The position numbers and the translations under genes are program-made. The notes beneath the pieces were generated by a model. The model saw nothing but the letters and a program-made list of their open reading frames with translations, did not search any database and was not told the DNA's origin. Positions 9,880 to 18,225 of a stretch of DNA of 22,655 nucleotides are shown here, piece after piece; positions within the stretch are counted from its first letter, which is position 1; each line of letters opens with the position of its first letter. This DNA is from a virus. The stretch is from positions 1 to 22,655 of IMG/VR virus record IMGVR_UViG_3300047358_000060; one strand, 5' to 3'.

Positions 9880-11510
9880 TGGCTGTGCGCGTAGACATAC
9901 AAGGGGTTGGTGTTGTCGAATTTGACGACAGTTTTGCCAAACTTTCCAAGCAAGAACAGCAAGACCTTGTGAACCAAGTCGCAAATAGCAGGCGCACGCC
10001 GGGTGCATCTGCCCCGGCAAAGAAGACCGAGGGGCGGACAGAAACAGACACCGAATATCTGCGGTCTGCGCTTCAAGGCATCTTGTTTGGCTTTGGAGAC
10101 GAGGCAGAAGGTCTTGTCTTCGGCCTTTATGATGCGGCAACCAAGGGCAAGTCTGTCACGGAAGCCTACAAGGACGCACGGGACAATGCTCGTAAAGAGC
10201 TAGAGAAATTCCGTGAAGATGACCCGCTGGCCGCGTATGGCACCGAAGTCCTTGCTTCCTTGCCCACTGCGTTGCTTGGCGGCGCAGGGCTGGCCAGAGC
10301 GGGGGTATCGGCAGGCAAGGGACTTGGCGCTGCTATGGGCCGTGCGGGCATTGAGGGGGCGGCATACGGCCTTGGAGCGGGCGAGGGTGACGTTGTTGAC
10401 CAAGCCAGATCTGCCGTGCTGGGCGGTGCCACAGGTGCAGCACTGACCGGCGCTGTTGGGGGCGTGCTGCGCTCGACGGTTGCCCCGGCACCTAGTAAGG
10501 CCGCACAGGAGTTGATGGACCGTGGCGTTAAACTGACTCCAGGCCAGCAATCACCGAATAGCGTTATTGGCATGGTCGATCAGGCGGCGGGCAAGATTCC
10601 GTCTATCCGTGCGGCACAGATGCAGGCCATCCCTGAGTTTAATCGTGCGGCCATGAATGAGGCACTTGAGGGTATCGGCAAGAAAGTGCCGAAGAACCTA
10701 GAGGGCGGTGACATCCTGATTTACGGCAGAGAGGCGTTTGAAGAAGCCTACGACGCCTTAATGAAGGACATTGAGGTGCCGGATCTGAATTCGGTCAAGC
10801 TGTCCGGCCAGAAGATTTTGGACGACGTTGAGCAGATCAGCCCCAAGGCCGCAAAGAAGCTGCAAAAAGAGTTTCAGACGCTGCTTGCCTACAAGGGCAT
10901 GAAGATGCGTACCCGGCTGGATGGCGATCTTTTCAAAGAAATCGACAGCCGTATCGGCAAGCGCGCAGCCGCTTATCAGAGAAAGGCACAAATGGGGCAG
11001 AGCGTTGATGCAGGGGACATCGCCCAAGGCATGTTCGCTTTGCAAAAAAATCTGCGTAACGCTCTTGTAGGCAAGACACCAGCGGCCACCGCTAAGCTGC
11101 GGATGACCAATCAGGGCTACGGCAAGTTTAAGATTGTGCAGGATGCAGCACGTCGGGCTGGCGGTGAGTTTTCACCGGCCAGGCTTGGGCAAGCATCCAA
11201 GGCCGCAGATCTTTCTCCAAGCAAGCGCGCTTCGGCAGAAGGCACGGCCCGTATGCAGCCTCTAGCACAGGCAGGCAAAGAGGCGCTTACCGCACCACCA
11301 GACAGCGGAACGCCGTTTGGTGCAGCGGCCTTCATGGGCGCGGCAGATCCGAATGTCGCCTTGCGTCTGGGAGCGGCAGGGATGCTTTCTCCAATCTATA
11401 GGCCACTAAGCCGTGGCTTGCTTGGCACAGCGCGTATGGGGCGTGCAGGCATCGAAGCGGGCGCGCCCGCAGTTGGTGGTCTTCTTGGCAGTGAATTTGA
11501 GAGGTACTAA
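9879..11510 (+). CDS. Putative internal virion / DNA transfer protein C
   Basis: This 543-residue protein has an N-terminal domain with VDIQGVGVVEFDDSFAKLSKQEQQDLVNQV, a short fold found at the start of large phage ejection proteins. It is followed by GILFGFGDEAEGLVFGLYDAATKGKSVTEAY and a Gly/Ala-rich hydrophobic region (about residues 105-205: LASLPTALLGGAGLARAG, LGGATGAALTGAVGGVLR) that could insert into membranes. Then comes a helical region with LTPGQQSPNSVIGMVDQAAGKIPSIRAAQMQ and the conserved-looking FNRAAMNEALEGIGKKVP. This layout is common in P22- and cyanophage-type DNA transfer proteins, which build a channel during ejection. It is translationally coupled on both sides (TAATG). No lytic transglycosylase motif is visible. 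Confidence 0.72.
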   Translation: MAVRVDIQGVGVVEFDDSFAKLSKQEQQDLVNQVANSRRTPGASAPAKKTEGRTETDTEYLRSALQGILFGFGDEAEGLVFGLYDAATKGKSVTEAYKDARDNARKELEKFREDDPLAAYGTEVLASLPTALLGGAGLARAGVSAGKGLGAAMGRAGIEGAAYGLGAGEGDVVDQARSAVLGGATGAALTGAVGGVLRSTVAPAPSKAAQELMDRGVKLTPGQQSPNSVIGMVDQAAGKIPSIRAAQMQAIPEFNRAAMNEALEGIGKKVPKNLEGGDILIYGREAFEEAYDALMKDIEVPDLNSVKLSGQKILDDVEQISPKAAKKLQKEFQTLLAYKGMKMRTRLDGDLFKEIDSRIGKRAAAYQRKAQMGQSVDAGDIAQGMFALQKNLRNALVGKTPAATAKLRMTNQGYGKFKIVQDAARRAGGEFSPARLGQASKAADLSPSKRASAEGTARMQPLAQAGKEALTAPPDSGTPFGAAAFMGAADPNVALRLGAAGMLSPIYRPLSRGLLGTARMGRAGIEAGAPAVGGLLGSEFERY

Positions 11511-14176
11511 TGGCAAAGACAAAGATTTCTGAACTGGACGCAGCAGCGGCCAACAACACCGATATTAACTCTGTTGACGTATCGGAGGGCTGCGCGCCAT
11601 CAGGCATTAACAATGCTATTCGTGAAATGGGCGCGATGCTGGCGCGGATGGACAATGGCACAGATCATCTGACCAATCCGAACATCACTGGCGATCTGGA
11701 CGTTGACAACATCAACATCAATGGCAACTCAATCACCAGCACAGATACTAATGGCGACATCGTTCTTGATCCGAATGGCTCAGGAAAGGTGGACATCAAC
11801 GGCAATCTGGATGTAGACGGCGGCACGATTAAGCTGGACGGTAACTACCCGACAGGCACAGAAAACGTGGCGTTGGGTGACACTGCCCTCGACAGCGTTG
11901 AAAGTGGTGGACAGTATAATGTGGCAGTAGGCTCTAAGGCTGGCACTGCAATTACAACTGGTGACCAGAATGTTGCTGTTGGTGCGTATACTCTTGATGC
12001 AACGACTACTGGCAGCGAGAACACGGCTGTCGGCAAATCTGCTCTTGGCTCAAACACCACTGCAAATAGTAACACCGCCGTTGGTTCATCTGCGCTACTT
12101 GATAACACGACAGGTAACAACAACGTGGCTGTTGGCCGTCAGGCGCTTACTAATAATACAACTGCCAACTTTAATACCGCTGTTGGTTCTATAGCAATGA
12201 AAGCTAACACCACAGGTGCCAGCAATACTGCGGTGGGCTACGCTGCGCTAGATGCAAACACAGAGGGTGACCAAAACGTCGCTATTGGTCAGGGTGCGCT
12301 TGGGGCAAATACAACCGCAAACAACAATACGGCTGTTGGTTATACGGCACTCAACGCGAATACCACCGGAACAGAGAATACTGCCGTTGGCTCCGCGACA
12401 TTGGACGCTAACACCACGGGCGACCAAAATACAGCCGTTGGTCGTGTTGCTTTAGGGGCAAACACGACTGGAGATGACAACACGGCTGTCGGTACAGGTG
12501 CGCTGCGTGACAACACCACAGCAAACAATAACACGGCTGTCGGTAGTGACGCTCTTAAAGTAAACACCACCGGCACAAACAACACCGCTGTAGGTCAAAT
12601 TTCTCTAGATGCTTGTACGACGGGTAGTGGCAACACCGCTTTAGGCCGTGCTTCTGCCAGTGCTTTAACCTCTTCGGATGACAACACTTATATTGGCTAT
12701 CAGTCTAATTCTGTAGGCGTCTCAGGGGATGATAATACGGGAGTAGGGGCGAATACTCTGTACAACAACGCTGCAGCGAACAACACCGCTGTCGGTTCAA
12801 ATGCGCTATATGCCAACACCACAGGCGGTAACAACGTCGCTATCGGTAGACAGGCACTAGATGCTAATACCACTGCATCCAACAACACAGCCGTTGGCTA
12901 TCAGTCACTTACGACAAACACCATTGGCACCAACAATGCGGGTCACGGATACCGTGCGCTTTATCTGAACACCGAAGGTTCTAATAACACCGCACTTGGC
13001 GCAGAAACACTCGCAGCTAACACCACCGGCGCAAGCAACACTGCTGTCGGTACGTATGCACTTGATGCCAACACCACTGCGAGTAACAACACCGCTGTGG
13101 GTTATCAAGCACTCACCGATAACACCACTGGCGCATACAACACAGCCGTTGGAGACACTTCACTCAGCGCAAACACCACCGGAAATTATAACTCTGCCTT
13201 TGGTCGTAGGGCGTTGTTTGACCACACTACGGGCAGTTTCAACACAGCCATAGGACATGAAGCCCTACAAAACAACACCACCTCAAACAATAACACAGGT
13301 GTTGGGTATCAGGCACTAAACGCAAACACCACTGGCGCATCAAATACGGCAGTCGGTTGGTCTTCCTTGAAGGACAATACCACAGGCGCAAACAATGTTG
13401 CCTTTGGTCAAAGCGCATTGCAGGAAAATACTACAGCAAATGCTAATGCTGCTTTTGGCTATCGTGCGTTGTATCTAAACACCACCGGCGCAACAATTAC
13501 GGCTGTTGGTTATCGGGCGGGATATAATAGCACCAGTGGGAATGGTTCAACATTAGTAGGCGCTAACGCAGGATATTCTTTGACAACATCAGCCCACGCC
13601 AACACATTTGTTGGGTCAGGTGGTTGGGCTAGTGACGGCGCAGGCTATGCCGTAACAACAGGCACAAGAAACACTATTCTCGGTGGTTACACCGGCAATC
13701 AGGGTGGCCTCGACATCCGCACATCCGACAACAACATCGTGCTGTCAGATGGCGATGGTAATCCTCGTATCCAAGTTGATGGGAATGGCGTCTTCAAAGT
13801 TCCCTATGTCTATAGTGATACAAATGGAAGTGCCGCAAATGTTCACATCGCTAGTGACGGTAGATTTTATAGAAGCACATCATCTCAGCGTTACAAAAAC
13901 ACCATTACTGATGCCACACACGGCCTGACGGAACTGCTTGCACTGCGTCCTGTCACCTACAAGGGTAACAATAACGGTGACACAATTTTTGGTGGCCTGA
14001 TTGCTGAAGAAGTACACGACGCTGGCCTGACAGAGTTTGTTGAATATGACGATGAAGGCCGACCAGACGCTCTTGCATACGGGAATATGGTTTCGCTGTG
14101 CATCAAAGCTATCCAAGAACAGCAAGCAACAATCACAGCACTTGAGGCACGTATTGCCACACTTGAGTCCAACTAA
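11510..14176 (+). CDS. Trimeric tail fibre with 17-residue repeats and S74 chaperone domain
   Basis: This 888-residue fibre starts with a short attachment region (AKTKISELDAAAANNTDINS), followed by a GDLDV-x-GN strand repeat (about residues 60-110). Residues 116-693 are about 34 tandem 17-residue units of the type G-x-x-NTAVG-x-x-AL-x-x-NTT, resembling the left-handed beta-roll of YadA-like trimeric adhesins. The C-terminus is a peptidase S74 intramolecular chaperone: SSQRYKNTI with the expected Ser-Lys pair (S791 and K796, spacing five), then LLALRPVTYKG, GGLIAEEVHDAG, YGNMVSLCIKAIQEQQ and a final coiled coil LEARIATLESN. Self-cleavage is expected just before S791, releasing about 98 residues after trimer folding. 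It is coupled by TAATG to the ejection gene and would contact the host surface. Confidence 0.92.
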   Translation: MAKTKISELDAAAANNTDINSVDVSEGCAPSGINNAIREMGAMLARMDNGTDHLTNPNITGDLDVDNININGNSITSTDTNGDIVLDPNGSGKVDINGNLDVDGGTIKLDGNYPTGTENVALGDTALDSVESGGQYNVAVGSKAGTAITTGDQNVAVGAYTLDATTTGSENTAVGKSALGSNTTANSNTAVGSSALLDNTTGNNNVAVGRQALTNNTTANFNTAVGSIAMKANTTGASNTAVGYAALDANTEGDQNVAIGQGALGANTTANNNTAVGYTALNANTTGTENTAVGSATLDANTTGDQNTAVGRVALGANTTGDDNTAVGTGALRDNTTANNNTAVGSDALKVNTTGTNNTAVGQISLDACTTGSGNTALGRASASALTSSDDNTYIGYQSNSVGVSGDDNTGVGANTLYNNAAANNTAVGSNALYANTTGGNNVAIGRQALDANTTASNNTAVGYQSLTTNTIGTNNAGHGYRALYLNTEGSNNTALGAETLAANTTGASNTAVGTYALDANTTASNNTAVGYQALTDNTTGAYNTAVGDTSLSANTTGNYNSAFGRRALFDHTTGSFNTAIGHEALQNNTTSNNNTGVGYQALNANTTGASNTAVGWSSLKDNTTGANNVAFGQSALQENTTANANAAFGYRALYLNTTGATITAVGYRAGYNSTSGNGSTLVGANAGYSLTTSAHANTFVGSGGWASDGAGYAVTTGTRNTILGGYTGNQGGLDIRTSDNNIVLSDGDGNPRIQVDGNGVFKVPYVYSDTNGSAANVHIASDGRFYRSTSSQRYKNTITDATHGLTELLALRPVTYKGNNNGDTIFGGLIAEEVHDAGLTEFVEYDDEGRPDALAYGNMVSLCIKAIQEQQATITALEARIATLESN
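11855..13588 (+). repeat. About 34 tandem 51-bp units in the tail-fibre gene
   Basis: The repeat starts at 11855 and the last clear unit starts at 13538, which is exactly 33 periods of 51 bases. Nearly every unit encodes 17 residues with NTAVG and NTT at fixed places. One unit is a residue longer (unit 1) and one a residue shorter (near unit 18), which cancel out. The DNA is diverged between units but short stretches such as AACACCACTGG recur, so copy number could change by slippage or recombination. Confidence 0.9.
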
Positions 14177-16360: not shown

Positions 16361-16539
16361 CTTGGCTTTTGCTGATGATCATTGCTGAAGTGAATGGTGA
16401 GTTGACTGTCCACATTCTGAGCGAACACCACACAATGGCGCACTGCCACGTCGCAGGCACAAAGATCCAATGGGAAGAACGGATGCCTGTGAACAAAGAA
16501 TTGCTGTGCTTTGCAACAGACGTTGAGGCTCTACAATGA
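16357..16539 (+). CDS. Small lysis-cassette protein, unknown function
   Basis: This 60-residue protein is coupled by ATGA to the holin-like gene and by ATGA to the next one. Residues 1-10 (MTWLLLMIIA) are strongly hydrophobic but short, with no positively charged residue before them, so it is at best an unusual signal-like segment. The rest is soluble: EVNGELTVHILSEHHTMAHCHVAGTKIQWEERMPVNKELLCFATDVEAL, with two Cys and several His. An exported or spanin-like role is possible, but there is no lipobox and no proline-rich region, so I leave the function open. Confidence 0.6.
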   Translation: MTWLLLMIIAEVNGELTVHILSEHHTMAHCHVAGTKIQWEERMPVNKELLCFATDVEALQ

Positions 16540-16913
16540 TTCAGTTTTTAGGGCCGATTGCATCGCTTGCAGGCACATGGCTTGAGAGCCGTGCTGAACA
16601 GACCAAAGCGAAGGGCGCAGTAGCTAAGGCGCGCGCAGAAGCTGAGAGCCAAGCAATGCTGACCGCAGCTACCCACGACAGCAAGTGGGAGTTGATCATG
16701 GCGCAGTCCACGCAGTCCAGCATACGCGACGAAATCGTCACGGTGATTGTGCTGATTCCCGTGGTGCTGGTCTTCGTTCCGGGCATGGAGGAGGTTGTGA
16801 AGGCAGGATTTGACCGCCTCAACGAATTACCTGAGTGGTATCAAGGTCTTGTGTACGTTACTTGTCTTGCCGGATTAGGGTTGAAGGGCGTAGACAAATT
16901 TCGCAAAAAATAG
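16536..16913 (+). CDS. Putative holin, GTA-holin-like, last late gene
   Basis: This 125-residue membrane protein starts by ATGA overlap. An N-terminal amphipathic segment (FLGPIASLAGTWLES) leads to a helical charged region KAKGAVAKARAEAESQAMLTAATHDSKWELIMAQ, then SSIRDEIVTVIVLIPVVLVFVPGM (membrane segment about 67-83) and ELPEWYQGLVYVTCLAGLGLKGV (about 102-117). The pattern W-E-x-x-M-A-x-x-x-x-S-x-R-D-E-x-x-T followed by an I-P-x-x-x-x-F-x-P-G span and P-x-W-Y is typical of holin-like proteins of marine phages and of GTA-release holins. It ends the rightward late operon; the proposed attP follows. Holin versus antiholin cannot be decided. Confidence 0.7.
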   Translation: MIQFLGPIASLAGTWLESRAEQTKAKGAVAKARAEAESQAMLTAATHDSKWELIMAQSTQSSIRDEIVTVIVLIPVVLVFVPGMEEVVKAGFDRLNELPEWYQGLVYVTCLAGLGLKGVDKFRKK

Positions 16914-16933
16914 GAGAGACACAGGGAGAGACA
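16913..16933 (+). repeat. Direct repeats GGAGAGACA, candidate integrase arm sites
   Basis: GGAGAGACA occurs at 16913-16921 and again at 16925-16933, 12 bases apart. A third GAGACA, in inverted orientation, lies at 17022-17027 on the other side of the dyad. Short repeats flanking a core fit integrase arm-type sites, but their number is small. Confidence 0.35.
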
Positions 16934-16941
16934 TTTTGCTG

Positions 16942-17012
16942 TAACCCACTGAAATCTCTATAATATAATGGCGGAGAGAGCGCCGAATAAAAATAGAGAA
17001 ATCAATGGGTTA
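16942..17012. other. Proposed attP: dyad around a tRNA-Ser-like core
   Basis: Left arm 16942-16961 and right arm 16993-17012 are inverted repeats with 17 of 20 matching bases. Exactly on the same centre (16977) lies GGCG (16970-16973), a 7-base GAGAGAG and CGCC (16981-16984). Read on the minus strand, 16969-16980 is CTCTCTCCGCCA, the 3' end of many bacterial tRNA-Ser genes. A 7-base overlap between short inverted core sites next to the 3' end of an integrase gene is the standard arrangement for a tyrosine-integrase attP. The dyad could also act as a bidirectional terminator between the convergent operons. Confidence 0.6.
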
Positions 17013-17017
17013 TTTGG

Positions 17018-18064
17018 TTACTGTCTCGCCATTTGCGTCACACCGGACGCAAAGGTTCTTTTCGCATATTCACGGGCTTTTTCGCGGTAGTCAGGATGGA
17101 TCTGAGCATAGTGCTGTTCAGTAATCTTGACCGTCGAATGGCCTAGCGCATCGCGGATCTGTTCCATAGGAACGCCGTCCAGTGCCGCGCCAGCCGCCCA
17201 CGTCGAGCGTAGATCATGGAAGCGGAAATCAACCAAATGAAGGCTCTGACACAGTGCCTTAAATTCAGGGTGGATGTTCTTCACCCGCTTGCCGTTGCGC
17301 TCAATAATGTGGCCAGTTTGTGACGTTTCAAACGCCTCTCTAAGCCACGGCTCTACCATGCCGGTGATATCACACACCCGCCTAGCTTTCCGCTTCTTGC
17401 CATCCGCAGGAGCATGAAAGTCGATCTGACCTTCCCCCCACTTGATCTGGTGCTTTTGCAGTTCCAGGATGGCCGACTTGCGTGCCGCCGTAGAGATTGC
17501 GATGCCGACAGCAAGGCGCAGATACAATGGTTGCTGGGGCAACGCCTGTAGCAACCGGGTACGCTCCTCTGTGTCTAGCCACCTGATACGCGCCACCTTC
17601 TGATACCGGTTCCTCGGTATGTACGGCACACCGCGTATCATCCTTCCCCGCTCTCTGTCTGCGGCCCAATTTAGGGCTGCAATCAGCACCGCCAGTTCGC
17701 GCGCCATCGTCACCTCTGACACGTTTGCCAGCCGTTCTTGCTTCCATTCGTACACGGCATCCTCAAAGGATTCATGATCAAGCGGGTCGCAATCGCGAAG
17801 CGGCTCAAGCTGGTTGAGTATAGAGTAGTGCCGTGACATTGAGACTGCGCGTGGGGCGTAATCTCGCACAGTAAACTGGTGCAAGATTTCACCTACGTTC
17901 ACATAATCGTGCGCCTGTTGAAGTCTCTTGAACGTCTCTAGGAAGGTCTTTGCAAACGCCTCATCTGACGTGCCAGTAGACGCATACTGCGGCTCTCCGT
18001 TCTCTCGCCAGTATATGTGCCAGTGCTTCCTGCCACCGCGTTTTTTAAGTTGATAGTTGTGCAT
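17018..18064 (-). CDS. int: Phage tyrosine integrase
   Basis: This 348-residue site-specific recombinase carries the full catalytic set: R195 in STAARKSAILEL, Lys in the GKKRKARR beta-hairpin (about 223-226), H283-x-x-R286 in HDLRSTWA, H309 in LGHST and the nucleophile Y319 in KITEQHYAQIH. The N-terminal part has an arm-binding-like beta region (KHWHIYWRENGEPQYASTGT), then a core-binding SAM-like domain (about 60-155). GAAGGAG precedes the ATG at a good distance, so the start is firm. The gene is the last of the leftward operon and ends only six bases from the proposed attP, as in lambda. The first 127 bases overlap the excisionase-like gene in another frame. Confidence 0.93.
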   Translation of the reverse strand: MHNYQLKKRGGRKHWHIYWRENGEPQYASTGTSDEAFAKTFLETFKRLQQAHDYVNVGEILHQFTVRDYAPRAVSMSRHYSILNQLEPLRDCDPLDHESFEDAVYEWKQERLANVSEVTMARELAVLIAALNWAADRERGRMIRGVPYIPRNRYQKVARIRWLDTEERTRLLQALPQQPLYLRLAVGIAISTAARKSAILELQKHQIKWGEGQIDFHAPADGKKRKARRVCDITGMVEPWLREAFETSQTGHIIERNGKRVKNIHPEFKALCQSLHLVDFRFHDLRSTWAAGAALDGVPMEQIRDALGHSTVKITEQHYAQIHPDYREKAREYAKRTFASGVTQMARQ

Positions 18065-18225
18065 GTCGTGTCTCCTTCGACAGTTGCTAGTGCGTGGGCT
18101 GGTATTCTTATTTTTTTACCCACTTTGATGTGAGGCAGATCGCCTGCCTCTGTCATACGCACCACAGTGCGTGCCGACACTTTCCAGCGGTCAGCAAGCT
18201 CCTGTGGTGTGTAGAACGCCGTCAT
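17938..18225 (-). CDS. Excisionase-like / AlpA-type HTH protein
   Basis: The ATG at 18225 overlaps the preceding stop (TGATG) and has a GGGTGG-type ribosome site. The 95-residue product starts with a winged-helix DNA-binding domain of the MerR/excisionase type: FYTPQELADRWKVSARTVVRMTEAGDLPHIKVGKKIRIPAHAL (residues 4-47), with the recognition helix in SARTVVRMTEAG and the wing IKVGKKIRI. Next to an integrase this is most likely the directionality factor that favours excision, or a small regulator. The remaining 45 residues lie in the 127-base overlap with int and have no recognisable fold, so the true functional protein may be mostly the HTH domain. Confidence 0.75.
   Translation of the reverse strand: MTAFYTPQELADRWKVSARTVVRMTEAGDLPHIKVGKKIRIPAHALATVEGDTTCTTINLKNAVAGSTGTYTGERTESRSMRLLARQMRRLQRPS

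Follow-up and report, generated by a model that had tools for sequence, protein, structure and literature searches.

A covarying hairpin spans the core of a putative tRNA-Ser attP beside a phage integrase gene and may report integration state

A phage integrase is needed before integration and before excision, and otherwise not. In phage lambda, sib is a stem-loop beyond attP that forms after int on the int-sense strand and that integration can separate from int. RNase III cleavage at sib lowers int mRNA. The functional parallel for the hairpin described here is sib (PMC5300877). In mycobacteriophage BPs, attP truncates the repressor protein and immunity is integration-dependent (PMC4557955), and DNA folding at a tyrosine-recombinase site is known from CTX phage (PMC5495485).

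The locus analyzed here lies in a viral record of 22,655 bases, which as a whole we call the window. It resembles the lambda attP/Int system in its arm-type repeats, IHF-like sites and inverted half-sites about a presumed 7-bp overlap, all beside int, and in a Xis-like gene that overlaps int, but it differs in its apparent tRNA 3'-end target, its one plus two arm sites and a long covarying hairpin across the core; lambda has no comparable hairpin 3' of int (best z, -2.7). Like sib, the hairpin follows int as a stem-loop on its sense strand and would be separated from it by integration, but unlike sib, which is beyond attP, its stem extends across the crossover and begins 5 nt past the int stop codon. 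The parallel with BPs is conceptual: the placement of attP lets integration itself alter a gene product, although the proposed target here is the 3' structure of int mRNA and not the truncation of a protein. As in integron attC sites and CTX phage, a hairpin carries the tyrosine-recombinase crossover, but here it is embedded in a duplex-type layout of arm and IHF-like sites and served by an ordinary phage integrase (phrog_1). In the open-access literature, we found no earlier description of an attP core spanned by a covarying hairpin.

The gene content is that of a small temperate tailed phage, including an SU10-type capsid protein, a lysozyme, a YqaJ exonuclease, ERF and an S24 repressor. An 888-aa protein (11510-14176) with repeated NTAVG-type motifs and a C-terminal stretch that by eye resembles an S74 chaperone domain is probably the tail fibre. 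A search of the PDB by sequence gave no match. The dyad sits between a late ORF and the convergent gene of a tyrosine integrase that has the catalytic set called for beside a lambda-type attP (R195, H283, R286, H309 and Y319, invariant in five relatives). The HTH_17 ORF overlapping the int start is, from its sequence, a probable directionality factor; within it, at 18131-18212, a very stable minus-strand RNA hairpin is predicted (-44.7 kcal/mol).

Table 1 Features of the attP region and its neighbouring genes in window coordinates
Feature	Position	Strand	Basis
Late ORF, function not assigned	16536-16913	+	phrog_2524
Putative arm-type integrase site, distal, TGTCTCTCC	16913-16921	-	repeat count; motif changes with int N-terminus
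Putative arm-type integrase site, core-proximal, TGTCTCTCC	16925-16933	-	direct repeat retained among relatives
Whole hairpin, int-sense strand, starting 5 nt past the int stop codon	16942-17012	-	fold, covariation
Outer arm, IHF-like TTTCAGTGGGTTA, imperfect, inverted	16942-16954	-	TCARTRGGTTA match
Inner helix arm TCTCTAT	16955-16961	.	covarying pairs
Identity with tRNA-Ser 3' end, CTCTCTCCGCCATTA	16966-16980	-	tRNA-Ser(UGA) genes in L062, L063
Core, inverted GGCG/CGCC about presumed 7-bp overlap CTCTCTC	16970-16984	-	sequence
Inner helix arm ATAGAGA	16993-16999	.	covarying pairs
Outer arm, perfect IHF consensus AATCAATGGGTTA	17000-17012	+	consensus match
Tyrosine integrase, 348 aa	17018-18064	-	PF00589 E 8e-17; PHROG phrog_1 integrase 1.7e-38
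Putative inverted arm-type site TGTCTCGCC, within int 3' end	17022-17030	+	sequence
Excisionase-like HTH_17 ORF, overlapping int start	17938-18225	-	PF12728 1.8e-12; phrog_7735 excisionase 5.9e-5

The original prediction had placed an attP here, with a tRNA-Ser-like core at the exact centre of a dyad with 20-bp arms, and this geometry was reproduced: 17 of 20 positions are paired between 16942-16961 and 16993-17012, GGCG (16970-16973) and CGCC (16981-16984) share with the arms the centre 16977, and the minus strand reads CTCTCTCCGCCA at 16969-16980. The longer CTCTCTCCGCCATTA has a single occurrence in the window. The DNA dyad scores 14, higher than any other in the window, but the same maximum was reached in one of 30 dinucleotide-shuffled windows, so that on this sequence by itself the dyad exceeds chance only marginally and is not proved. 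On the int-sense strand, 131 nt folded with -50.3 kcal/mol (z = -8.3), and comparison with the sequences of relatives lifts the dyad far beyond chance.

Family scans of viral contigs supplied relatives with integrases 81-99% identical, and the last scan added relatives at 72-74%. The dyad is kept in eleven other distinct attP sites from these metagenomic relatives (integrases 72-99% identical), and wherever the contig extends, the same layout follows int: outer arm, inner arm, core, inner arm, outer arm and arm repeats. From one outer end to the other, the outer arms cover 71 nt in every complete case but L008/L009 (72), and the core GGC/GCC is retained in the 81-99% relatives. Over the twelve distinct attPs, 91% of the cells of the 18-pair stem are paired and eight pairs changed on both sides, giving a covariation score of 0.338 against 0.136 +/- 0.023 in shuffles, none of 500 of which reached it; when the partner was slid by 1 to 3 columns, the score was at most 0.095, and restricting the analysis to the eight closest sites left the result unchanged. 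Among the inner arms are TCTCTAT/ATAGAGA, TATCTAT/ATAGATA, TACATAG/CTATGTA and TACTTAC/GTAAGTA, and the outer arms of L081 are changed to TAAGACATTGA/TCAATGTCTTA. In L078, L079 and L081 the inner helix lacks in-register pairing, and the core CATTCAC pairs with GTGAATG instead. These alignments show the conservation of the pairing, its location and its dependence on sequence from both sides of the core.

In the window and six relatives the fold has z values of -7.3 to -11.4. Lambda and four phages whose integrases are distant gave -1.0 to -4.5, and no comparable fold was present there in the 200 nt after int. A covariance model found one copy per family phage, plus a weak match on the opposite strand of each because the element is a dyad, and had no match in control phages or in 385 alphaproteobacterial genomes. 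An Rfam search of the element gave no match, and scanning phage and viral DNA for the arm repeats added no members to the family; one candidate, L051, was rejected as a chance repeat array. The long symmetric arms, which had been called unusual and left unexplained, read as a covarying hairpin and not just as protein sites, and on this comparative evidence they very probably form a conserved base-paired element.

The region itself is best explained as a lambda-like attP with the predicted order of one arm site, IHF, core, IHF and two arm sites. GGAGAGACA occurs twice in the window against 0.11 expected; relatives have two or three direct repeats, and the closer ones an inverted copy at the int end, with GTATGACA as the counterpart of TGTCTCGCC in those that carry TGTCATACC repeats. 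The repeats switch together with the integrase N-terminus in three pairings (KKRGGRKH with TGTCTCTCC, KRRKGR with TGTCATACC and KERPDRKN with TGGCAAA). Because their sequence tracks the N-terminus, as that of arm-type sites should, the two repeats left of the core and the one inverted copy right of it seem to act as arm sites for the integrase. The outer arms resemble IHF sites, TCARTRGGTTA occurring twice in the window, both times within the dyad, against 0.03 expected. With the site directly 3' of the tyrosine integrase in all relatives, the arm-type repeats and a tRNA-like 3' end in the loop, we place high confidence in the proposed attP. Among distant homologues (27-38% identity) in the 385 alphaproteobacterial genomes, ten loci were read; in eight of them, int is immediately followed by a tRNA gene or a 3' fragment of one (Gly, Arg, Thr; fragments read by eye).

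A match of more than 12 bases to a tRNA-Ser gene had been set beforehand as the test of the proposed target, and we found 15 bp for the window and 17 bp for relatives, in both cases with tRNA-Ser(UGA) genes. The relatives' 17-mer CACTCTCTCCGCCATTA is present in 2 of the 385 genomes, each time as the 3' end of tRNA-Ser(UGA). As many tRNA-Ser genes end in CTCTCTCCGCCA, TTA beyond CCA could be chance (this extension alone is not significant), and we therefore take the identity of 12-15 bp with tRNA-Ser as the evidence. The core also varies by lineage (CTCTCTCCGCCA, CCCTCTCCGCCA, ATCCCGTACGCCA, TCCCCTCCGCCA, CATTCACTCCCGCCA), having been swapped in the loop several times among relatives while the arms covary. 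The original prediction suggested looking for related prophage ends that flank a matching tRNA-Ser gene; the 3'-end match stood, but no prophage was found in the searched genomes. No attL/attR pair or host turned up in these genomes, including the 385 alphaproteobacterial ones, and neither prophage nor attL or attR in 43 genomes of the order holding one tRNA-Ser match. Across 84,980 species genomes, a scan with the integrase family gave no close relative and an attR-type pattern gave nine matches, none of which had an integrase homologue within the stretches tested. Because no lysogen was found, we only infer, from the sequence match, that the phage probably integrates at a tRNA-Ser gene and that its integrase would use this attP to do so.

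Recombination in the core would send the two halves of the stem to opposite prophage ends. On a transcript from the int promoter, the hairpin would therefore form at the 3' end of the int mRNA, 5 nt past the stop codon, only with an intact attP, and integration would give int a 3' end from the host, which in one example is the terminator of the tRNA itself. When the int-side half of attP was joined to two tRNA-Ser(UGA) loci, the hairpin was lost in both, and in one of them the terminator-like hairpin of the host tRNA lands behind int. Because recombination must split the stem and these joins remove the hairpin, we propose a 3' control of int that depends on integration state, and since integration cuts the hairpin in two, it could report that state. 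The predicted control of int mRNA, present only in the unintegrated phage, may work by RNase III processing or by protection of the 3' end (both putative), and its effect on the level of int could be destabilising, as in sib, or protecting. We give about an even chance to a lambda-like attP for tRNA-Ser with a superimposed hairpin that controls int mRNA by integration state, which is our best explanation, and a somewhat smaller one to a phage family with an RNA sensor of integration state built from attP, whose covarying structure is kept while the target in the loop is exchanged. As an integration-state switch, a structure that spans the crossover and is lost in the very recombination it may control would be simpler than lambda sib, and the family illustrates how the target of an integrase lineage can change with the attP scaffold constant.

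Which molecule folds can be approached through the mismatches. Interior transition-type non-Watson-Crick states on the int-sense strand were six G.U and no A.C (one-sided p 0.016), a small bias that weakens to 6 v 1 (p 0.06) when the one A.C state, at a terminal pair, is included, the events being not fully independent. Because the interior mismatches are G·U on this strand, they favour an int-sense RNA hairpin or, less likely, the int-sense DNA strand, although the numbers are small; single-stranded DNA would likewise prefer G.T over A.C. The L010 element folds with -27.8 kcal/mol on the int-sense strand and -17.6 on the complement, while L004 and L007 show a small difference in the opposite direction. 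We infer that the RNA is the functional form.

The dyad might be no more than two inverted IHF sites flanking the core of a plain attP, with incidental pairing. TCARTRGGTTA lies on both arms, the 17000-17012 arm is a perfect IHF consensus, the outer helix is also constrained by IHF-like sequence, and TCARTRGGTTA or an IHF-like motif occurs near the tRNA ends of other elements (L032, L041, L044, L053, L055). However, the inner 7-bp arms co-change on both sides, and so do the four bases of the IHF motif that IHF does not read (TGGG/TGGC/TGTC); IHF binding requires no such match. The window, L003 and L004 have three different inner arms although their HTH proteins are identical over 53 compared residues and their integrases 93-98% identical; since the arms differ while both proteins stay near-constant, protein recognition does not readily explain them. 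We consider incidental pairing unlikely. Alternatively, the structure could act as DNA, folding at attP as an int-sense single strand or a cruciform, much as the sites of integron attC and CTX phage do, and the core in the loop, the symmetric half-sites and the tolerance of G.T wobble in single-stranded DNA would fit. This is improbable: the genes resemble those of an ordinary tailed dsDNA phage, the arm and IHF-like layout is that of a duplex lambda-like intasome, and a preference for G.U over A.C is not expected of a cruciform.

Its position between the late ORF and int would also suit a bidirectional terminator separating the convergent genes, the more so as a plus-strand terminator-like hairpin with a T-rich tail is next to it in the 3' coding end of int (17032-17053), but neither strand has a U-tract after the stem and a terminator scan gave no call. 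We therefore rejected an intrinsic terminator, and the bidirectional one has a low probability. Template switching during replication, which is known to yield compensated changes in quasi-palindromes, would copy one arm onto the other and produce such changes with no function at all; against a spacer of about 31 nt, stable G.U mismatches that persist within lineages, and pairing that survives loop swaps and the 72-99% range of integrase identity, we regard it as very improbable. The hairpin as a 3' control element of int mRNA is the reading we prefer.

Further tRNA-Ser loci were noted in the course of the analysis. In L041, L044, L045, L046, L048 and L049 (Acidobacteria MAGs and Thioalkalivibrio), the same IHF-like motif, AATCAGTGGGTTA, follows tRNA-Ser genes by 10-14 bp; five of these genes were called by ARAGORN and that of L049 by eye, and no int homologue was present beside them in the tested stretch of up to 4.5 kb. 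A viral contig with a distantly related integrase (L032:3720-3900) carries an apparent attP of about 70 bp that resembles the 3' sequence of tRNA-Ser(CGA), adjoined by AAACAGTAGGTTA. In Synechococcus phage Ssp-JY37 (L066), an apparent attP with a long antisense tRNA-Ser-like fragment lies directly 3' of int, and a terminator-like hairpin is found directly after int.
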